A stretch of 64,000 nucleotides of DNA from Maribacter sp. 4G9 (GTDB lineage: Bacteria > Bacteroidota > Bacteroidia > Flavobacteriales > Flavobacteriaceae): positions 62,001 to 126,000 of the forward strand of contig NZ_MDGL01000156.1 of assembly GCF_002742265.1 (NCBI RefSeq), read 5' to 3'. A program made the translations under genes and the position numbers. Below the pieces are notes generated by a model that was not told where the DNA came from, did no database searches, and was given only the letters and a program-made list of their open reading frames with translations. Positions within the stretch are counted from its first letter, which is position 1. Each line of letters begins with the position of its first letter. Of this stretch, positions 4,792 to 61,949 are shown piece by piece.

Positions 4792-4884
4792 TTTCTAAAA
4801 TTATGAAGGTGGGATTATGAATTAAGGCTTATCCTTCGATAATCGTAATTACACCTTCGGTGAAATTTATTTATACTTGTTCGA

Positions 4885-36824: not shown

Positions 36825-39800
36825 ATGATGAAAAAAATTTCTATAATCCTAAGTATACTTCTGTTCTCACAAATAATGAACGGTCAAGAAGCCAATATGT
36901 CCTATAATGAACTTTGGAACCAGGTTCTGAAGTTGGAAAAAGACCAACTTACCCGTAGTGCCTACGATCTGGTCCAAAAAATCTACCAAAAAGCGGATAA
37001 AGAAAGTAACGACGTTCAACGTACAAAAGCATTGTTGTTCTCCTCCAAATACGTGCTCATCCTGGAGGAAGAAGCGCAACTTTCCGTACTAAACAGGTTT
37101 AAAACCGAAATTGAAAAGACGGCTTTTCCAACTAAAAACATCTTGGAAAGCTATCTCGCCAATCTCTATTGGCAGTATTTTCAGCAAAACCGCTATCAAT
37201 TCTATAACAGAACGGCCACTGAAACCAAAGTCGATACCGTCGATTTTAGGACTTGGGACCTCACCACCCTATTCAAAGAAATAGACAGCCATTTTCAAAA
37301 CGCTTTGTCGGATTCAAAAGCGCTCCAAAAAACCAACCTTAAGGAATTTAAGGAATTGATGGAGACCGAAGAAGGTTCTGAAGTGTATAGACCGACATTG
37401 TACGATCTTCTGGCACATGATGCGCTGAATTTTTACAAATCCGATGAAAACAGCATAACCAGACCAGCCGATAAATTTGAAATCGATTCTTCAGACTATT
37501 TGTGTGATGCCTATTCTTTCACACAACTGAAAATACCTTCAAAAGATGCCACTTCACTGTATTCCAAGGCGATGGGGATATATCAGGAACTGATCGGCTT
37601 TCACTTTTCGGACCCAAAGTTGGATGCCTTGACCTTGGTCGATATAGAACGCTTGAATTTTATATTTTCCAAAGCTGTTTTCTCGGATAAAGACGACGTT
37701 TTAGAGAAAGTCCTTATCGAAAGTGCAGAAAACATTCGGCATCATGAAACTTCCGCCCTTTATTCTTACGAGTTGGCCAAACTTTATAAAAACCAAGGTG
37801 ATAGGTTTACGCCGGATGCCCCCCAACACCGATGGAAATTAAAGAAGGCCATAGAACTATGTGATCAGGTCATAGGCCAATATCCAGGTACAAGGGGTGC
37901 TCAACAATGTGCATATCTCAAATCACAGATCCAAACCCCGTCCCTGCAGCTGCAAACGGAGAAATATATTCCCGTAGAAAAGCTAGCAAAGCTATTGGTG
38001 AATTACAAAAATAGGAGGTTGTTGGATTTGCGAGCCTACCCTATTTCGGCCAAACAGTGGGAAGACCTGAACAACCTATATCCAGAATCCGAAAAACTGG
38101 AATTCATTCAAAAACTACAGCCATTAAAGGAATGGTCGGTCAACTTGATAAACGAGGGCGACTATCAGCTGCACAGCATAGAAATTCCCATGCCGGAACT
38201 CCCAAATGGCCAGTATTTGATTTTTGCCCTTCCCAAAGAAGGCAGTGGTGAAAGCTTCGCCTACAGCGAGGTTCAGGTAACCAATTTGGCTTTGCTACAA
38301 TCCGCTACGGATAAAGAGCATATTTTTCAAGTGGTGGACCGAAACAACGGGGCCGTTAAACCGGGTGCCAAAGTAACCTTGTACCACTGGGGGAACCGTA
38401 TGGGACAGAACAGTAAAAGTTATATTTCGGACAAAAACGGTTTTGTCCAAATACCCCTTGCCAACAAAAGCCTTTCCGTAGAATTTGTAAAGGTGGCGCA
38501 TGGGGGTGATGTGGCGCAATTCGGAAATACCTACATCCGGCAAAAAAATAAGCAAAACAACGGGCCGGATGTGGTCCTTAAAAGCTTTTTGTTCAAGGAC
38601 CGAAGCATTTATAGACCAGGGCAACCACTGTACTTTAAAGGTGTGCTCATAGAGCAGCGGGAAAATAAATCCGCCCTGGTAACGGAGGAAAATTTAACAG
38701 TGGAACTATACGATGTCAATGGCCAGAAAGCATCCGAAATGGAAGTTAGGACAAATGACTTTGGTTCCTTTAAGGGCGAGTTTGTGATACCAAGTACAGG
38801 ACTTACGGGACAGTATTATCTATCGGTCACCGGTCCCGCCAACCTGGTTAGGGAATACAGTTATTTTTCTGTAGAGGAATATAAAAGACCCAAATTCGAG
38901 GTCGGTTTTGAACCCGTTACAGCAGTCTTTAAAGTAAACGATTCCGTCACCGTAAAGGGCAGTGCCAAATCATTTTCGGGTAGCAACATCACGGATGCCA
39001 AGGTCAGCTATAGGGTGGAAAGAAGCGTCAATTACCCAATTTGGTATTCTTGGCGACGCGGCCCAATGTACTGGGGAGCAAATCAGGAAATAGCCCACGG
39101 GGATCTTCAAACCGATGCCGAAGGAAATTTTAGCATTGATTTCAAGGCCATTCCAGACCTAAAAGTTGTGAAAGAGGACCTACCTGTTTTTTCTTACTTG
39201 ATACATGCCAATGTAACGGATCTTAACGGCGAAACCAGAACTGCGACCACCACGGTCAATGTTGGCTACCATGCCATGACGGCCAACATTCTTGTGGACG
39301 GACCCTTGAACAAAGCCACTGACGAAAATACGATCACCGTCATTACCCAAAACCTCAATGGACAAAAAGTATCCGCCAAGGGAATACTGAAAATGCACAA
39401 ATTGCAGGCCCCCGAACATGTGCTCAGGCCCAGGCCATGGGAAGCGCCGGATTATCAATATTGGAGCAAATCTGATTTTAAGAAACTTTTCCCCCACGAA
39501 GCCTATGGGCAGGAACATTCGGTCGAATTCTGGCCGAAGGGAAAATTGGTCTTCGAAACGGATTTTGACACCAATAATAACGATACCATTACTATTTCCA
39601 ACCTTAAAAAATGGGACACAGGTAGTTACCTCATTGAAGTGGAAAGTGTGGATACATTTGGTCAACAGGTGACCGCCAAGACCAACACACAATTAATGGA
39701 TACCAAGGAAAAGTCGCTTCCGGACAATCAACTGTTTCGCTTAGAGACCGATAAAGAACAGTACAATGCAGGTGACCTAGCCGAGATTACCTTTTACAGC

Positions 39801-42800
39801 AATGCCAAGGATTTGTATGTCACCTATTGGGTGGAAAAAGAAGGCAATCGTATCCAAACCGAAGTTTTAAAAATAAAAAAGGACCATGAATCCATTCGTG
39901 TTCCCGTAACCAAGGACGACTTGGGTGGTTTCGCCGTGGGCTACAGTTTTACGGTCTTCAATTCCTTCCATACCGGCAATCTTTCCATCTCCGTACCCTA
40001 CCCCGATACCGATTTGAAGATAGAGACTTTGACGTTTAGGGACAAGATGGCCCCGGGGACGGACGAGACTTGGAGCTTTAAAATTAAAGGCCCGAAGGGC
40101 GAAAAGGTTACGGCAGAATTGTTGGCCAGTATGTACGACGCTTCGTTGGATCAATTCGTTTCCCATAATTGGTATTTCAATCCCTTATTAAGACCCAATT
40201 ACTATTCCCGGTCCTATGTAAATGCCTATCTGAGCTTTGGCACGGAAAATTTCAGGAATTATTTTGAAGACAATAATTCTTTGGGACAGGCACCTAATTT
40301 ACAGTTTGACCAATTGGAGTGGTTTGGGTTGAATTTTGAAAATAATATAGCCCAAGTTCTAAGAGGTCGTGTTGCTGGCTTATCCATTAAAAGTAAATCG
40401 GAAGCTCCTATGGCCATGAGCGATGCTATGGCCGCCAATGCGAGTTTTGAAGGGGAGGTTCTGGAAGAAAGTGTAGCATTTGCCCAAAACAACCCGGAAA
40501 CCTCAAAACCGAGAGAGGAAAACGACGGCGAGCCAGACTTTGGCGATGTGATAATTCGTAAAAACCTTAAAGAAACGGCCTTTTTCTTTCCGCAATTGAC
40601 TACGGATGCTGAAGGGAACGTCTCCTTTAACTTTAATTCGCCCGAGGCTTTGACCCGTTGGAACCTCCAATTATTGGCGTATACAAAGGATTTGAAATCG
40701 GTAGTCAAAACCCTATCTACCGTTACCCAAAAAGAGCTGATGCTACTGCCCAATCCTCCCAGATTTCTACGTGAGGGCGATACGATTACCCTCAGCACCA
40801 AAATCGCCAACCTATCCGAGAATTCATTGGAAGGGTTTGCGCAATTGGAACTAACCGATGTACTTACCGGAAAATCCATCGACTCGGAACTTGAAAACAA
40901 TGAAAAACAAAAACCGTTCAGTGTTGGAGCACAAGGAAATACCCAAATATCCTGGAGGTTATTAATTCCCAAGGGCATACAAGGCGTTGAGTATAAAATT
41001 ATTGCAAAATCCGGCACTTTTAGCGATGGCGAGCAAGGTGCATTACCCGTGCTTACCAACAGGATGTTGGTAACGGAAACCTTGCCCATGTGGGTGCGGA
41101 GCAATGAAAACAAGACCTTTGTTTTGGACAAATTGAAGAATGTGTCTTCAACCACCTTGGAGAACCACCAACTCACTTTGGAAATCACCTCCAATCCGGC
41201 ATGGTATGCCGTTCAGGCCCTGCCCTACCTCATGGAATATCCGTATGAATGCAACGAGCAGACCTTTTCAAGATATTATGCCAATACCTTGGCAAGCCAC
41301 ATTGCCAATTCCAATCCAAGAATCAAGGAAGTGTTCGACCAATGGGCCAACTCCGATGCGCTTTTGAGCAACTTGGAAAAAAACCAGGAACTCAAGTCAC
41401 TTTTGATCCAGGAAACGCCTTGGCTCAGGGATGCACAATCGGAAACCGAGCAGAAGAAACGAATCGGACTTTTGTTCAACCTCAACAATATGAGAAATGA
41501 ACAGGAGATGACCTTACGAAAGCTTGAAGAAAACCAATTAGCATCGGGCGGGTGGCCCTGGTTTCAAGGTGGTAGGGAAAATAGGTTCATCACCCAGCAC
41601 ATTGCCATCGGTTTTGGGCATTTGGATAAACTCACCAGTTCAAATTCAAATACAAGTTCAAGTGCAAACTCAAATTCAAGTGGAAGTGCAAGTGCAAGTG
41701 CAATGTTGGAATCGGCTATTTCGTATTTGGATGCCGAATTTGTATCCGAGTACGAGCAGATGAAGAAGTACGCCTCTGACCTTTCCAAGGACCATTTAAG
41801 CCCCAATCAACTCCATTTTCTCTATATGCGAAGCTTTTTTAAGGACCTGAAAACCTCCAAAAAAGTGCAAGACATCATGGAATACTATTTGGGCCAGGCG
41901 CGGACCTATTGGACCAATAAAAATTTGTACTCCAAAGGTTTGATTGCGCTCACGTTATATCGGTCCGGAGATGAAACTACGGCAAAAAAAATACTGCGTG
42001 CTTTGGAGGAAAACAGCGTGCAATCAAAGGAATTGGGCATGTACTGGAAGGAAAACATTCCTTCATGGTATTGGCATCAGGCGCCCATAGAAACGCATTC
42101 ACTATTAATAGAAGCCTTTTCAGAAATTGGGAAGGATACCCAAGTCATTGACGAACTAAAAGTATGGCTATTGAAAAATAAACAGACCAATCAATGGGAA
42201 ACCACAAAGGCCACAAGCGATGCCGTATATGCCCTATTGTTACAAGGTAGCGATTGGCTATCGGTCACCGATGCGGTTGACGTCAAAATTGGCACGGAGA
42301 CCATCGACCTTAAAAACCAAAAGAAAGTTCAAGTGGAGGCCGGAACCGGTTATTACAAAACTTCATGGAACAAGCAAGAAATAACCCCCGCAATGGCCAC
42401 GGTAAACATTCAGAAGCAGGGCGAAGGAATTGCTTGGGGAGCCCTTTACTGGCAGTATTTTGAGGATTTGGATAAAATCACCTCCGCAGAAACTCCCTTA
42501 CAATTGAAGAAAAAGTTATTCCTAAAAAAGAATACGGATACCGGAGAGGCGCTTTCTGAAATCAGGGAAGGGACCCAAGTTAAAATTGGCGACTTGGTAA
42601 GGGTGCGCATTGAGCTTCGGGCGGACCGCGATATGGAGTTCGTGCATATGAAAGATATGCGTGCGGCAGGATTTGAGCCGATCAATGTGCTGTCCCGCTA
42701 CAAATGGCAGGATGGATTGGGCTATTATGAAAGTACCCGGGATGCCAGCACCAATTTTTTCTTTGACTATCTGCCCAAAGGCGTTTATGTTTTTGAATAT

Positions 42801-44761: not shown

Positions 44762-45489
44762 AGGCTCATTTTATCCTTAAAAAGGTAGGATTGCCTTCTG
44801 GAAACCTCTACTTCTTCCCCGTTCATCATGGTGAGTTTCAGTTTCCCATTGAACCAGGGCACTACATTGGCAATAAAATTGGTGTTGATGACCTGTTGCC
44901 TGTTGGCCCTGAAAAAATACCTTTCCGGTAGTTTCTCCTCCACTTGGTTCAAGGACTTGTACAACAGGGGCTTTTCATCTTGGAAAAAGACCCGGGTATA
45001 ATTGCCCACAATCTCAAAATGGGAAATATCCCCCACTTTTATAAGCCAGCATTTCTCGCCGTCCTTAATAAAAATCTGACTATTACCGGTCAATCGTTCT
45101 GTGTTTTCCTTTGTAGCCTCCCTATTCTTGCTTAGTTTTTCCTCCACTTTTTCTATCGCCTGTGCAAAGCGCCTTTCATTGATGGGCTTTAGCAAATAAT
45201 CCAAGGCATTATACTCAAAGGACTTTATGGCATATTCATCAAAAGCAGTGGTAAATATCGTAATGGGAACTTCGTCCAACATTTCCAAAAGTTCAAAACC
45301 GTCCTTTTCGGGCATATTGATGTCCAAGAAAAGTAAATCGGGATTGTGCTCGTTTATTAGGGCAAAACCATCATCTACATTCTCGGCTTCGGCAATGATC
45401 TCAATTTGGGAATATGCCTTAATAAGTTCTTTCAGCTCATTACGGGCTAAACGGGAATCCTCTACTATAACAGTTCTAATTTGGCTCAT
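44758..45489 (-). CDS. LytTR-family response regulator
   Basis: Two-component regulator (243 aa). The receiver domain (1-120) has the acidic pair at 10-11 and the phospho-acceptor in LLFLDINMPEKDGF (Asp56), with TTAFDEYAIKSFEYNALDYL and the following Lys-Pro. The LytTR DNA-binding domain (about 140-243) includes GDISHFEIVGNYTRVFF, PERYFFRANRQQVINTNFI and VEVSRRQSYLFKDKM. It overlaps the histidine kinase gene by 4 bp (ATGA). Two repeats matching the LytTR consensus occur at 47538-47567, a plausible target. Confidence 0.93.
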   Translation of the reverse strand: MSQIRTVIVEDSRLARNELKELIKAYSQIEIIAEAENVDDGFALINEHNPDLLFLDINMPEKDGFELLEMLDEVPITIFTTAFDEYAIKSFEYNALDYLLKPINERRFAQAIEKVEEKLSKNREATKENTERLTGNSQIFIKDGEKCWLIKVGDISHFEIVGNYTRVFFQDEKPLLYKSLNQVEEKLPERYFFRANRQQVINTNFIANVVPWFNGKLKLTMMNGEEVEVSRRQSYLFKDKMSL

Positions 45490-46556
45490 GACAAGGGTAT
45501 ATTTATGGTTGCCATTACTTCGTTATCGATTTCCACAATATCAAAACGGGCTTGGTTTCCATACAATAGACGTAACCTTTGCTTGATATTCTGGAGTCCC
45601 AATTGTGTAGAATCTTCCGCAATTTGCAAGGTTCCCGTATTTAGGACCTTTATAATCAAATCCTGATTCTCAATGGCAGTAACGAGTTTTATGGTCCCAC
45701 CCGCTTTGAGTTTGGATATACCATGTTTGGTGGCATTTTCGACCAACAACTGAATAATCATGGGCGGTATCTTAATTTCCAACGTTTCACTTTGGACCTC
45801 CTTTAAAAATTGTAGCCTATCCTCAAATTGAATCTTGGATAGTGCTATATAGTTATCCACCATTTCCAACTCTTCTACAAGTTTGATCGAGTTGATATTG
45901 TTCTTGGTAAGGGAGTATCGAAGCATTTCTGAAAGCTTTGTCAGCATATCCCTTGACTTCTCAACATCCTCCAACATCAGCCCACGGATATTATTCAGGC
46001 TATTGAACATAAAATGTGGGTTGATCTGTCCTTTTAAAGTGTTCAATTGGGCCTGTCTAAGGCTGGCATTGAGTTCGGCGCGTTCCACCCTATTTGCGTT
46101 GAGCTTTGCTGCAATCTTTACGGATAAATAAAAAATGGTCCAGCCAAAAATCGTTATAAAGGAATTGATCAACATCAATCCCAAACCAAATTCCTTGTAC
46201 ATTTCCGGCACTTTTACATCCTCTTCCCCAAATTTCCCCATGTAATATCCCGCACCATAGGACAAACCAAAGTAGATCAAGGCCGTTACAGAAATTCCAA
46301 CTAGGATCTTAACGATTTGGCCGGACTCGAACGAGTCAAAATTTATGATTCCCTTTAAAAAATATCTAAGAAGACTTGTAGTAAAAACACCTATCAAAAA
46401 AGTGGACAAAAGACCATACTTAAAAGTGTATGATGCCTTATATCCATCGGCGTCAGGTGTAAAGGCATAGGCAATGAACACCAATCCTCCCCAGGACATG
46501 ATTTGGACCAACCAAAAGGATAATGCCCATCTATGCTTTTTAATGAAGGTTGCCAT
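45486..46556 (-). CDS. LytS-type sensor histidine kinase
   Basis: Inner-membrane kinase (356 aa). Four hydrophobic segments lie in residues 10-150. The His_kinase domain has the phosphoacceptor motif GQINPHFMFNSLNNIRGL (His181), followed by an ATPase domain with PPMIIQLLVENATKHGISKL and GLQNIKQRLRLLYG. No separate sensor domain is present, so the signal is probably sensed within the membrane. First gene of the pair with the LytTR regulator; an 11-bp inverted repeat lies just upstream. Confidence 0.93.
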   Translation of the reverse strand: MATFIKKHRWALSFWLVQIMSWGGLVFIAYAFTPDADGYKASYTFKYGLLSTFLIGVFTTSLLRYFLKGIINFDSFESGQIVKILVGISVTALIYFGLSYGAGYYMGKFGEEDVKVPEMYKEFGLGLMLINSFITIFGWTIFYLSVKIAAKLNANRVERAELNASLRQAQLNTLKGQINPHFMFNSLNNIRGLMLEDVEKSRDMLTKLSEMLRYSLTKNNINSIKLVEELEMVDNYIALSKIQFEDRLQFLKEVQSETLEIKIPPMIIQLLVENATKHGISKLKAGGTIKLVTAIENQDLIIKVLNTGTLQIAEDSTQLGLQNIKQRLRLLYGNQARFDIVEIDNEVMATINIPLS

Positions 46557-46592
46557 TTTTATCGTTTACGGGTAAATATAGGGGAACGAAAG

Positions 46593-46625
46593 ATTTTAGT
46601 TTCTGAAAAAAATCGAAACTAAAAT
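46593..46625 (-). repeat. Inverted repeat upstream of the histidine kinase gene
   Basis: ATTTTAGTTTC, 11 nt, GAAACTAAAAT: a perfect 11-bp inverted repeat ending 37 bp before the kinase start. A TATATTTA box, one mismatch to TAnnTTTG, lies between it and the ATG on the minus strand, so the repeat overlaps the expected -33 region and could be an operator. Confidence 0.55.
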
Positions 46626-46780
46626 AATATTTGAATTACCAAAACCATAATGAACTTTATAATTGCTATCATTGGTGTATTCTTTTATAGGTATAAAAAT
46701 AGAATTCGTGTTTTACAATTTAAACCGATTTATGAAGAGCGGTAAAATTGTTTTGTTGAGTGGTTTCCCAAATGCCAAAA

Positions 46781-47110
46781 TTAGTTTTTCGCCACGTTAC
46801 AGTTGGAAAATGTTAGTTGTTGGCCTCCTTCAAAATCGATGATAATGAATGCATTATTACAGAATCCCTTCTTTTCAAAATCCTCTAACAAGACCGCTGT
46901 AAGGGTATCAAAATCATAATCAGGGCAATCACCGGCCAAAAACTCATAGCGTGCACCGGAACTATTGGGGCTATCCTTGGAAAACGTAATTCCAAAACTT
47001 GATAAGCTCAACTCCACGTTGGAACAATTACTTTGCTTTTGTATACTGGCCTTTAACCCATCGATATCCTTATGGTTCCCTGAACAAGATGTAAGGACTA
47101 TCATAATCAC
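46781..47110 (-). CDS. Small lipoprotein with interrupted signal peptide
   Basis: From the GTG at 47110 the frame gives 109 aa (MIMIVLTSCSGNHKDIDG, lipobox LTSC), a signal peptide far too short and lacking a basic N-region. Reading the same frame upstream gives ATG at 47140 and MKNFLKGLS, then TAA (47111-47113), then VIMIVLTSC. The intact ancestor was therefore probably a lipoprotein starting at 47140. The stop lies in a perfect 14-bp palindrome. The mature part has four Cys (NCSNVELSL, AGDCPDYDFD, KGFCNNAF, FSNCNVAKN), no family recognised. Either a recent pseudogene, a recoded or reinitiating gene, or a sequencing error. Confidence 0.6.
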   Translation of the reverse strand: MIMIVLTSCSGNHKDIDGLKASIQKQSNCSNVELSLSSFGITFSKDSPNSSGARYEFLAGDCPDYDFDTLTAVLLEDFEKKGFCNNAFIIIDFEGGQQLTFSNCNVAKN

Positions 47111-47124
47111 TTATGATAGTCCTT
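47093..47124. repeat. Perfect 14-bp palindrome with 4-nt loop
   Basis: AAGGACTATCATAA, TCAC, TTATGATAGTCCTT on the plus strand. It covers the signal-peptide codons of the small lipoprotein gene, including its in-frame stop and the downstream GTG and ATG codons. A T/A-rich run follows on the plus strand. Confidence 0.85.
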
Positions 47125-47167
47125 TTAAAAAATTTTTCATAGGTACTGCTTTAATGTTCTTTTTGGA

Positions 47168-47365
47168 TTAACCTATGACACTTTCGGTTTCCTTTTTCAC
47201 GTTTCCCTTATTCAATAGGGACACTCCCATGAGGGTTAAACCGGCGTATAAAGGAAAAAAGTAGTTTATCAAGTTTAAATCCCTTAAGGCCCCTATCAAG
47301 GATACCAATACGGTTATAGTTCCAATAGCTAATACAGTTACTTTTGTTTTGTCGATTGTTTTCAT
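47168..47365 (-). CDS. Small two-helix membrane protein
   Basis: A 65-aa protein with two hydrophobic segments (VTVLAIGTITVLVSLIGAL and YFFPLYAGLTLMGVSLL) and a basic/acidic C-terminal tail ending ETESVIG. No family recognised. It precedes the interrupted lipoprotein by 57 bp on the same strand, and upstream carries a long leader with a hairpin and two LytTR-type repeats, so it may be part of the LytTR regulon. Confidence 0.65.
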   Translation of the reverse strand: MKTIDKTKVTVLAIGTITVLVSLIGALRDLNLINYFFPLYAGLTLMGVSLLNKGNVKKETESVIG

Positions 47366-47408
47366 GTGTTTGTTTGTTTTTTGAATTGTTACATGTAGCC
47401 TTTGATAA

Positions 47409-47449
47409 TTAAAATAATCCTTGTTTTGAATTATTAAGGATTATTTTAA
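47409..47449 (-). repeat. 14-bp perfect inverted repeat in the leader of the small membrane gene
   Basis: TTAAAATAATCCTT (47409-47422), 13-nt loop, AAGGATTATTTTAA (47436-47449). It ends 44 bp before the ATG of the 65-aa membrane protein. The stop codon of a 7-residue frame on the same strand lies inside its first arm. Confidence 0.7.
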
Positions 47450-47537
47450 ATATGTCGGTTTCATGATGTTGTTTTTTAATTGTTAGTAATACGATGTAAA
47501 ACTAGGGAGCTATTTGGAGGAAACTAAAAGGTTTATG

Positions 47538-47567
47538 ACGAACGGTAGAAAGACATGACCGAACGGA
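47538..47567 (-). promoter_or_regulatory. Predicted LytTR binding site (two direct repeats)
   Basis: On the minus strand TCCGTTCGG (47559-47567) and ACCGTTCGT (47538-47546) both match the published LytTR half-site pattern [TA][AC][CA]GTTN[AG][TG] at every position. They are separated by exactly 12 bp, the spacing expected for a LytTR dimer on one DNA face. The site lies about 170 bp upstream of the small membrane protein and about 2 kb from the LytTR regulator gene. Confidence 0.65.
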
Positions 47568-47630
47568 AGTTTTTCCTAACTAAATTGTAATGTATTGATA
47601 ATCAATTTTTTATATTGATTTTTTTCAAAT

Positions 47631-47660
47631 AAAACCTATGCTAAAAGCCCTTAGCATGGG
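47631..47660 (-). terminator. Probable terminator of the DUF4136 gene
   Basis: On the minus strand CCCATGCTAA, a 6-nt loop and TTAGCATAGG form a stem of nine pairs plus one mismatch or wobble, followed by TTTTATTTG. It lies 47 bp past the DUF4136 stop. Confidence 0.65.
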
Positions 47661-47707
47661 GTCTGGCAGGGAAAATAGGGGTATTTGGAAAAGTGCTTTT
47701 AAGAAGG

Positions 47708-48235
47708 TTATTTCCTAGTTTTGGGCGGGTATCTTTCAAATATTTTAGCAACCAGTTCTTGCATTTTTTCTTCTTTTATGGTGGGTGGGGCACCCTCTTT
47801 ATATGGCTGTGTACCTATGGCCTGCCAAACCAATACATCCTTTCTGGCATCGATGAAGTTAATTTCAATTTCCCGAGTAAGATTGGGACTCCCAACAGGA
47901 ATCCCCACGGATACACCACCACCAAGGCCCCCATTGCCACCACCAAGTCCAACGCCAATGGTTTTACCTGATTGGCCTTCAAAAATCAAGCTTTTTACAT
48001 CTATTAGGATGTCTGGTTCTTCAGAAAATTTTAAGCCCTTGGATTGGAGTGTTATATCCATGGCCCTAAAGAAGCGTTTTTCGTCCAGTTCTGGAATACC
48101 GGTCTGCATATCCCCAAAATAATTATAGGTGTTATAGCCGGAAAAATCCGATTCCCGCTCAAAATCATAGTTAACTTTTATTGTGCTGCACGATACAAAA
48201 AGTACCATCAGCACTAGTATATTTAAATATTTCAT
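47708..48235 (-). CDS. DUF4136-family lipoprotein
   Basis: A 175-aa protein with lipoprotein signal MKYLNILVLMVLFVSCS (lipobox FVSC). The mature start VNYDFERESDFSGYNTYNYF and the DEKRFFRAMDITLQSKGLKF segment are typical of DUF4136 proteins, which have no established biochemical role. A glycine-rich stretch (about 97-117, VGLGGGNGGLGGGVSVGIP) precedes the terminal EEKMQELVAKIFERYPP. Single-gene unit with its own terminator. Confidence 0.85.
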   Translation of the reverse strand: MKYLNILVLMVLFVSCSTIKVNYDFERESDFSGYNTYNYFGDMQTGIPELDEKRFFRAMDITLQSKGLKFSEEPDILIDVKSLIFEGQSGKTIGVGLGGGNGGLGGGVSVGIPVGSPNLTREIEINFIDARKDVLVWQAIGTQPYKEGAPPTIKEEKMQELVAKIFERYPPKTRK

Positions 48236-48356
48236 CCTGAATATTTTACTCGATAATCGAGATTTGAATGCTCCGAAACTTACCTCTCATTCAAACTTTT
48301 GTTCCCTTGAATGCTTTGTGTGCTTGCTTCGAAGTTACCTTAAGATAGTAAAAAAA

Positions 48357-49067
48357 TCAATCCTCCTCTTTCTTGTCCACACTTTTTGTAAGCGCAGAGG
48401 AAATAATTCCGGTTGGAATCGCCACGATACCCAAACCGATCATCAGAATAAAAAAAGTAAAGATCCTACCACCTACCGTTATTGGGTACACATCCCCATA
48501 ACCAACCGTAGTAAGTGTTATGATGGCCCACCACAGGCTATCAAAAACCGAAGAAAAATGCTCTGGCTGGGCCTGATTCTCAAAATAATAGATTCCCACC
48601 GCGGAAAAGTAGATCAAGATAAGCGTAACAAACAGAAATAGTAAAATTTCCTCCTTGGCCAGTACAATAGCCCTGGTGAAATGTTTTATGGCCCTATTAT
48701 AGCGCATTAATTTTAGCATTCTGAACAGGCGAAGGAACCTCAAAGCCCTTAATGACCTAAGGTCGACACCTAGGGCAAGGTAAAAAGGCAAAATTGCCAA
48801 GAAATCTATAATGCCAAAAAAGCTGAAAATGAACTTGGTTTTTTTATCGGCTACATAAATACGTAACAGATATTCCAAAGTGAAGACTATCACACAGAAA
48901 ATCTCGATGCCCCGTAGTAAACTCCTCGTTTTGGGCTCCAAATCAGGAACGGTCTCAAAGGAAAAGGAGACAATGGAAACAAAGATTAAAATTTGGATGA
49001 AGTAGCCGAAAAACCGACTCTTTGGATTATCATTCAACTCAACAATATTTTTTAGATACTGTTTCAT
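48357..49067 (-). CDS. Voltage-gated-type potassium channel
   Basis: Six-helix cation channel (236 aa) of the inner membrane. The S4-like helix has regularly spaced Arg (RSLRALRFLRLFRMLKLMRY). The pore has WWAIITLTTVGYGDVYPITV with the K+ filter TTVGYGD. No cytoplasmic RCK domain follows; it ends in a short charged tail (KSVDKKEED). Predicted role in K+ flux and membrane potential. Confidence 0.9.
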   Translation of the reverse strand: MKQYLKNIVELNDNPKSRFFGYFIQILIFVSIVSFSFETVPDLEPKTRSLLRGIEIFCVIVFTLEYLLRIYVADKKTKFIFSFFGIIDFLAILPFYLALGVDLRSLRALRFLRLFRMLKLMRYNRAIKHFTRAIVLAKEEILLFLFVTLILIYFSAVGIYYFENQAQPEHFSSVFDSLWWAIITLTTVGYGDVYPITVGGRIFTFFILMIGLGIVAIPTGIISSALTKSVDKKEED

Positions 49068-61917: not shown

Positions 61918-61949
61918 TAAAGCTTATTATGCGCGCATAATAAGCTTTA
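61918..61949. repeat. 32-bp perfect palindrome between gcvP and the ketosynthase gene
   Basis: A continuous, loopless palindrome centred at GCGC (61933/61934), with arms TAAAGCTTATTATGCG and its complement. It starts 96 bp after gcvP and ends 39 bp before the next ATG. It could serve as a bidirectional terminator (TTTATGTTTT follows on the plus strand) or as an operator for a dimeric regulator. Confidence 0.85.

Follow-up and report, generated by a model that had tools for sequence, protein, structure and literature searches.

Genes and features at the locus

The window, by which we mean the whole 64-kb stretch of DNA that was analysed, contains on its minus strand a small lipoprotein gene with a stop codon inside its signal peptide. 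The gene was compared with its counterparts in two relatives, G007 and G023, and the surrounding DNA also with a third, G002. The features considered here are as follows.

45486..46556, minus strand: downstream gene, mosaic, which we take from its sequence to be histidine-kinase-like
46400..47350, minus strand: approximate tract of likely recombinant origin, 86-96% identical to G007 per 100-nt bin
46781..47140, minus strand: disrupted small lipoprotein gene, identified by reading of the frame and comparison with relatives
47093..47124, minus strand: perfect inverted repeat of 14+14 bp with the loop GTGA; both relatives have it with a single T-T mismatch
47108..47110, minus strand: GTG following the TAA, in the hairpin loop; also GTG in G007, GTA in G023
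47111..47113, minus strand: in-frame TAA, with base 47112 differing from the Leu codon of G007 and G023
47168..47365, minus strand: ORF65, an intact membrane-protein-like ORF of 65 aa, 27 nt ahead of the lipoprotein ATG
47360..47464, minus strand: copy of a dispersed structured element, found also at loci L066-L087 and L148-L181

The lipoprotein frame starts with an ATG at 47140 and reads MKNFLKGLS, the TAA (47113-47111), VIMIVLTSC and then 100 residues with four further Cys; its final stop ends at 46781. Thus, the frame, its stop and the intact mature part are as the original prediction described them. In the intact relatives the product is a protein of 119 aa, consisting of MKNFLKGLSLVIMIVLTSC and 100 aa, and the interruption comes early, at codon 10. 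Like the lipoproteins processed by signal peptidase II, the intact relatives share a basic n-region (Lys2/Lys6), a hydrophobic core and the lipobox Cys of LTSC, whereas the window allele is broken within the hydrophobic core; the signal was judged by eye from the translations. Two alternative starts follow the stop, the GTG in the loop (47110-47108) and an ATG in the right arm (47104-47102), both inside the inverted repeat as had been claimed. Products started there (MIMIVLTSC... and MIVLTSC...) have no Lys or Arg ahead of the lipobox Cys. A second copy of the lipoprotein was not found in the same genome at E<=0.001. The window frame read from the GTG reached no curated cut-off in Pfam, and the G007 lipoprotein had no match in NCBIfam. 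Elsewhere in the window, an ordinary S4-Flavobacteria ribosomal protein leader was detected at 4813-4844 on the minus strand (52.5 bits).

The inverted repeat

The arms of the repeat, 47093-47106 and 47111-47124, pair at 14 of 14 positions around a loop of 4 nt, in agreement with the earlier description. As RNA, the 32-nt hairpin folds with -18.3 kcal/mol (z -7.4). As to the claim that such palindromes are rare in coding DNA, perfect inverted repeats of at least 14 bp (loop 3-10) occur twice in the 64-kb window and never in 30 dinucleotide shuffles. The other one (61918-61949, loop CGCG) sits between two long ORFs and has a 16-bp counterpart ahead of the same downstream gene in G002 and G007.

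G007 and G023 already carry the repeat at the lipoprotein gene with a single mismatch (13 of 14 pairs). The G023 version folds as a stem of 12 bp with an 8-nt loop; the stem comparison is made with G023, the folded stretch of G007 having ended short within the right arm. The arm pattern was searched in 36 genomes of the genus and was present solely in the three that have the lipoprotein gene, at no other place, and a role of the palindrome as a shared operator was rejected on this result. Judged from these sequences, the repeat itself is not new and the unusual part is one substitution.

Comparison with relatives at the stop

The lipoprotein is present in three of the 36 genus genomes at E<=0.001; besides the genome of the window, these are G007 and G023. 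The reading frame runs uninterrupted past the site in both relatives, with upstream MKNFLKGLS and a Leu codon in place of the TAA. The original prediction had asked for the alignment of these codons, and homologues that begin at the GTG or ATG would have spoken against it; neither relative is of that kind. Along these codons of the signal peptide, one base separates the window from G007 and two separate it from G023, the second being a silent A/G difference. The GTG was rejected as a newly arisen start because G007 has it too, as an ordinary Val codon.

The base that differs from the relatives is the sole mismatched pair of their quasi-palindrome (T-T in the relatives, A-T in the window). Therefore, one T-to-A change would have both made the stop and perfected the repeat. 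In the G007 allele, 54 single substitutions can create a stop, of which 15 are T>A; by inspection and in a post hoc count, one of the 54 restores the missing pair, and this is the one observed.

Homologues were also searched in the family. A profile of four rows found 17 matches at E<=0.01 in 299 family genomes, some of them weak; twelve, the window's included, reached E<=3.5e-5, and in the other 11 of those a hydrophobic N-terminus and a C-x-C motif can be made out by eye. The window's is the only one of the 17 with an internal stop. One row of the profile was itself a weak match (G308, E 0.006), so G308, a distant homologue that emerged when a weak protein match was followed up, is found partly by construction. 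Two further weak protein matches (G278 and G428) were discarded, the matched DNA having its long open frame on the opposite strand. A search of contigs for further copies of the gene gave one locus, apparently that of G023 itself (100% identity).

A mosaic tract carries the gene

The flanks of the locus are nearest to G002, with 94% identity in the channel-like and DUF4136 genes and 91-98% outside the tract (45600-46199 and 47800-48999). G007 and G023 are the nearest (89-92%) for ORF65, for the lipoprotein gene and for the intergenic DNA that follows it. In ORF65 the identity to G002 is about 80%, and G002 lacks the lipoprotein gene. The kinase-like gene is itself mosaic; it is G002-like at 45600-46199 and G007-like where it adjoins the lipoprotein gene. 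The bins at 46200-46399 and 47500-47799 fit the rules for both G007 and G002 poorly. The DUF4136 assignment was made for the window's gene, and the neighbours are presumably channel-like and histidine-kinase-like.

At E<=0.01, ORF65 is matched in 14 further genomes of the genus, weakly in two of them. ORF65 loci were read in nine other genomes of the genus; all have the order DUF4136-like gene, ORF65, histidine-kinase-like gene, and at seven the channel-like gene keeps its place as well. Between ORF65 and the kinase, these nine loci contain no same-strand, ATG-started ORF of at least 55 codons. A tract of about 1 kb that resembles G007 and G023, lies in a G002-like background and carries a gene of only three of the 36 genus genomes is likely recombinant, and the simplest reading of the sequences is that it entered by homologous recombination.

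Selection and sequence quality

The mature part is conserved between the window and the relatives (dN 0.060 and dS 0.290 against G007; dN 0.081 and dS 0.358 against G023). With dN/dS of about 0.2 against both and no indels, the hallmarks of a pseudogene, that is, relaxed selection and further lesions, were not seen. A mature part that is constrained and free of indels suggests that the stop is recent; less likely, the low dN/dS may mean that the protein is still made.

Elsewhere, the sequence of the window is clean. From 102 non-overlapping ORFs (at least 60 codons) in 100 kb of G007, 67 usable matches to the window (17,682 aa) were obtained, and only the lipoprotein gene had a stop or a split frame. 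The same number of usable matches (17,935 aa) came from 117 ORFs in 120 kb of G002; there, the one stop found precedes the called start of a radC-like gene.

How the stop arose

We consider it quite probable that the small lipoprotein was recently lost through a nonsense change, by whichever route. The locus is most likely a recently broken gene and not a new control device, because the one-base stop also completes the near-perfect palindrome of the relatives. The stop would be the derived state; this polarity rests on the two intact relatives because no outgroup has the gene at the locus.

We propose the following course of events. A segment like that of G007 and G023, with ORF65 and the lipoprotein gene, would have come in by homologous recombination, already carrying the quasi-palindrome of 13 of 14 pairs in its signal-peptide codons. 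During replication, the nascent strand may then have copied its own other arm, which is template switching at a quasi-palindrome. The resulting T-to-A change at 47112 would have replaced Leu10 by TAA and removed the last mismatch of the repeat. Translation would then give a peptide of nine residues and no exported protein.

Template switching at quasi-palindromes is described as making repeats more perfect, with hot spots in E. coli that include a natural site in thyA, and quasi-palindrome (QP) reporters in lacZ have been used for such mutations (PMC7202029). The lipoprotein gene is alike in that an imperfect repeat in coding DNA appears to have been perfected with the other arm as the source of the base. 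It differs in being a single base deduced from a comparison of three genomes. In yeast, template-switch changes that make the arms of inverted repeats alike inside protein-coding genes are reported (PMC8604942). The likeness of the arms is shared with our case, but in the yeast study the changes are of several bases and are found by comparing strains with ancestors (PMC8604942), whereas here one base changed and the outcome is a stop. Related work on template switching concerns RNA genes (PMC8794818).

Both signatures expected of a quasi-palindrome mutation are found here: the repeat was imperfect before the change (13 of 14 pairs, on the assumption that the relatives show the older state), and complementarity was raised by a base that the other arm supplies (T-T to A-T). 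The original prediction of such a mutation thus stands insofar as the one base that differs from G007 is the single mismatched pair. As to mechanism the prediction is weaker, since one base does not prove template switching and no general excess of hairpin-making changes was found over 55 kb. Given that the stop is real, we lean towards template switching as its route.

The excess was sought among 1,870 window-derived substitutions in 55 kb, which gave 13 distinct hairpins of at least 8 bp against 10.2 in matched controls, 3 against 2.8 at 9 bp or longer, and 0 against 0.6 at 10 bp or longer. For 2,208 G002-derived substitutions, the corresponding figures were 8 against 11.8, 4 against 3.5 and 2 against 1.1. 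These numbers describe the lineage at large; the lipoprotein gene is outside the aligned set because G002 does not have it. An apparent general excess (18 against 8.45 at 8 bp or longer) was discarded; it had counted several bases per hairpin and vanished when distinct hairpins were counted with matched trinucleotides. In the ORF of 2035 aa, three window-specific substitutions (39260, 39263 and 39287, within 39250-39300) jointly form a 9-bp hairpin, and so do two adjacent ones (41060-41061, within 41045-41075). These two clusters could be multi-base template switches, although the overall count is not above chance.

The main competitor of template switching shares everything with it except the route: an ordinary random T-to-A change made the stop, and the repeat was completed by coincidence. 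That 15 of the 54 possible nonsense substitutions are T>A, and that the window lineage makes no general excess of hairpins, are in its favour; just one of the 54 would perfect the repeat, however, and quasi-palindromes are described as hot spots (PMC7202029). We regard coincidence as a serious candidate, if a somewhat less probable one than template switching.

It is unlikely that the stop is an error of sequencing or assembly at the hairpin, although one wrong base might still be behind the TAA. The assembly consists of 196 contigs, and strong hairpins can provoke polymerase switching during library preparation. Against an error, the comparisons with G007 and with G002, of 67 ORFs each, turned up the lipoprotein stop and the one ahead of the radC-like start, and the remaining window is clean.

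We hold it very improbable that the quasi-palindrome is a recurrent hot spot at which template switching turns the lipoprotein off, with a polymorphic population and a contingency-like loss switch. More doubtful still is regulated expression, in which translation would stop at the TAA and resume at the GTG or ATG under control of the hairpin, or read through. The GTG directly after the TAA and within the loop, the stem of 14 bp against 12 in G023, and the low dN/dS are consistent with it; continued production of the protein would indeed keep dN/dS low, and to that extent the low value counts against a recent loss. However, neither close relative has the stop, the GTG is a Val codon in G007, and the single stop among the 17 profile matches is the window's own, so that the stop is not conserved. 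Moreover, known lipoprotein signals need Lys or Arg before the Cys, which the reinitiation products do not have, and TAA is usually not leaky. Hairpin-controlled reinitiation or read-through, as originally suggested, was rejected on the comparison with the relatives and the profile matches. Equally improbable is an intrinsic terminator or attenuator inside the gene: a consensus scan calls the hairpin terminator-like (1 found against 0.6 expected from shuffles), but only four pairs of the stem are G-C, the tail ACATCTTGTT falls short of a clean run of T and the arms are limited to the three genomes with the gene among the 36.

A structured element at start codons

Upstream of ORF65, 99 nt that directly precede the gene are absent from the four aligned relatives (G007, G002, G013 and G023). 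The sequence at 47363-47464 begins with ATGAAACC, ends on the start codon of ORF65 and is followed by AAA. It belongs to an element of about 90-108 nt that is inserted exactly at an ATGAAA start codon. At three loci, filled sites read ATGAAA, roughly 90-100 nt, ATGAAA, and empty sites have a single ATGAAA. The ORF65 locus is filled in one genome and empty in four, a sixth locus not having been caught by the motif used. At a locus with a gene that we take to be citramalate-synthase-like, two sites are filled, five are empty and one (G009) has a different insert; at one presumably etfB-like, two are filled and six empty (eight of 34 matched genomes aligned in each case). The different insert in G009 (L092) begins ATGAAAC and ends on the gene's GTGAAA start, and it possibly represents a second family of start-codon inserts.

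A covariance model built from six copies gave 22 matches in seven of the 36 genus genomes, and 15 of these end on the start of an ORF. In the family it matched 31 of 149 genomes (E<=0.001 per genome), many of them weakly. G041 alone has 25 matches, and ten of its copies, picked from 11 of equal score, are identical over 94 nt and then have ATGAAA followed by differing sequences; eight of the ten open a frame of at least 77 codons or one that runs to the end of the stretch, and two a short frame. Among 46 distinct copies, 43 end as ATGAAA on the 3' side and 38 begin with ATGAAA on the 5' side, counts that arise partly by construction because the model includes both ATGs; neither the AAA behind the second ATG nor the gene is built into the model. 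In 36 of the 46, the ATG opens a frame of at least 60 codons or one that extends to the end of the locus. One genome has two tandem copies that share an ATGAAA.

Two helices covary, and the second holds the start codon. The structure was tested on an alignment that was not fitted to it, with 35 of the 46 copies and the structure taken from one of them. In this alignment, 84% of cells pair against 21-43% when the structure is slid, and both sides have changed in 39 cells, where shuffles give 13.8. The signal is weaker for pairs that show double changes (7, where shuffles gave 5.2 and 22 of 500 reached that number) and for additional pair types (17, where shuffles gave 15.0 and 78 of 500 did so). 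In the first helix, the three inner pairs do not form in 15-19 of the 35 copies. In the model-fitted alignment, 93% of cells pair.

Rfam searches, with gathering scores for the window and E<=1 for ten loci, returned no family that matches the element, and nothing on it was found in open-licence PMC papers. An autonomous or protein-coding version was not found at five further sites that were read. These comparisons suggest a structured, non-autonomous mobile leader, apparently undescribed so far, with ATGAAA start codons as its targets.

Biological meaning

The lipoprotein gene offers a natural example, in three genomes, of a near-palindrome that loses its one mismatch at the cost of a stop codon. 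It is probably a real and recent case to be added to the known gene-breaking substitutions at quasi-palindromes. It suggests that hairpin-prone coding sequence can inactivate genes, and that a striking palindrome around a stop codon need not be a control element. By itself, a broken lipoprotein gene changes little. The element upstream of ORF65 could matter more, as an apparently mobile, structured leader that sits precisely on the start codons of unrelated genes.
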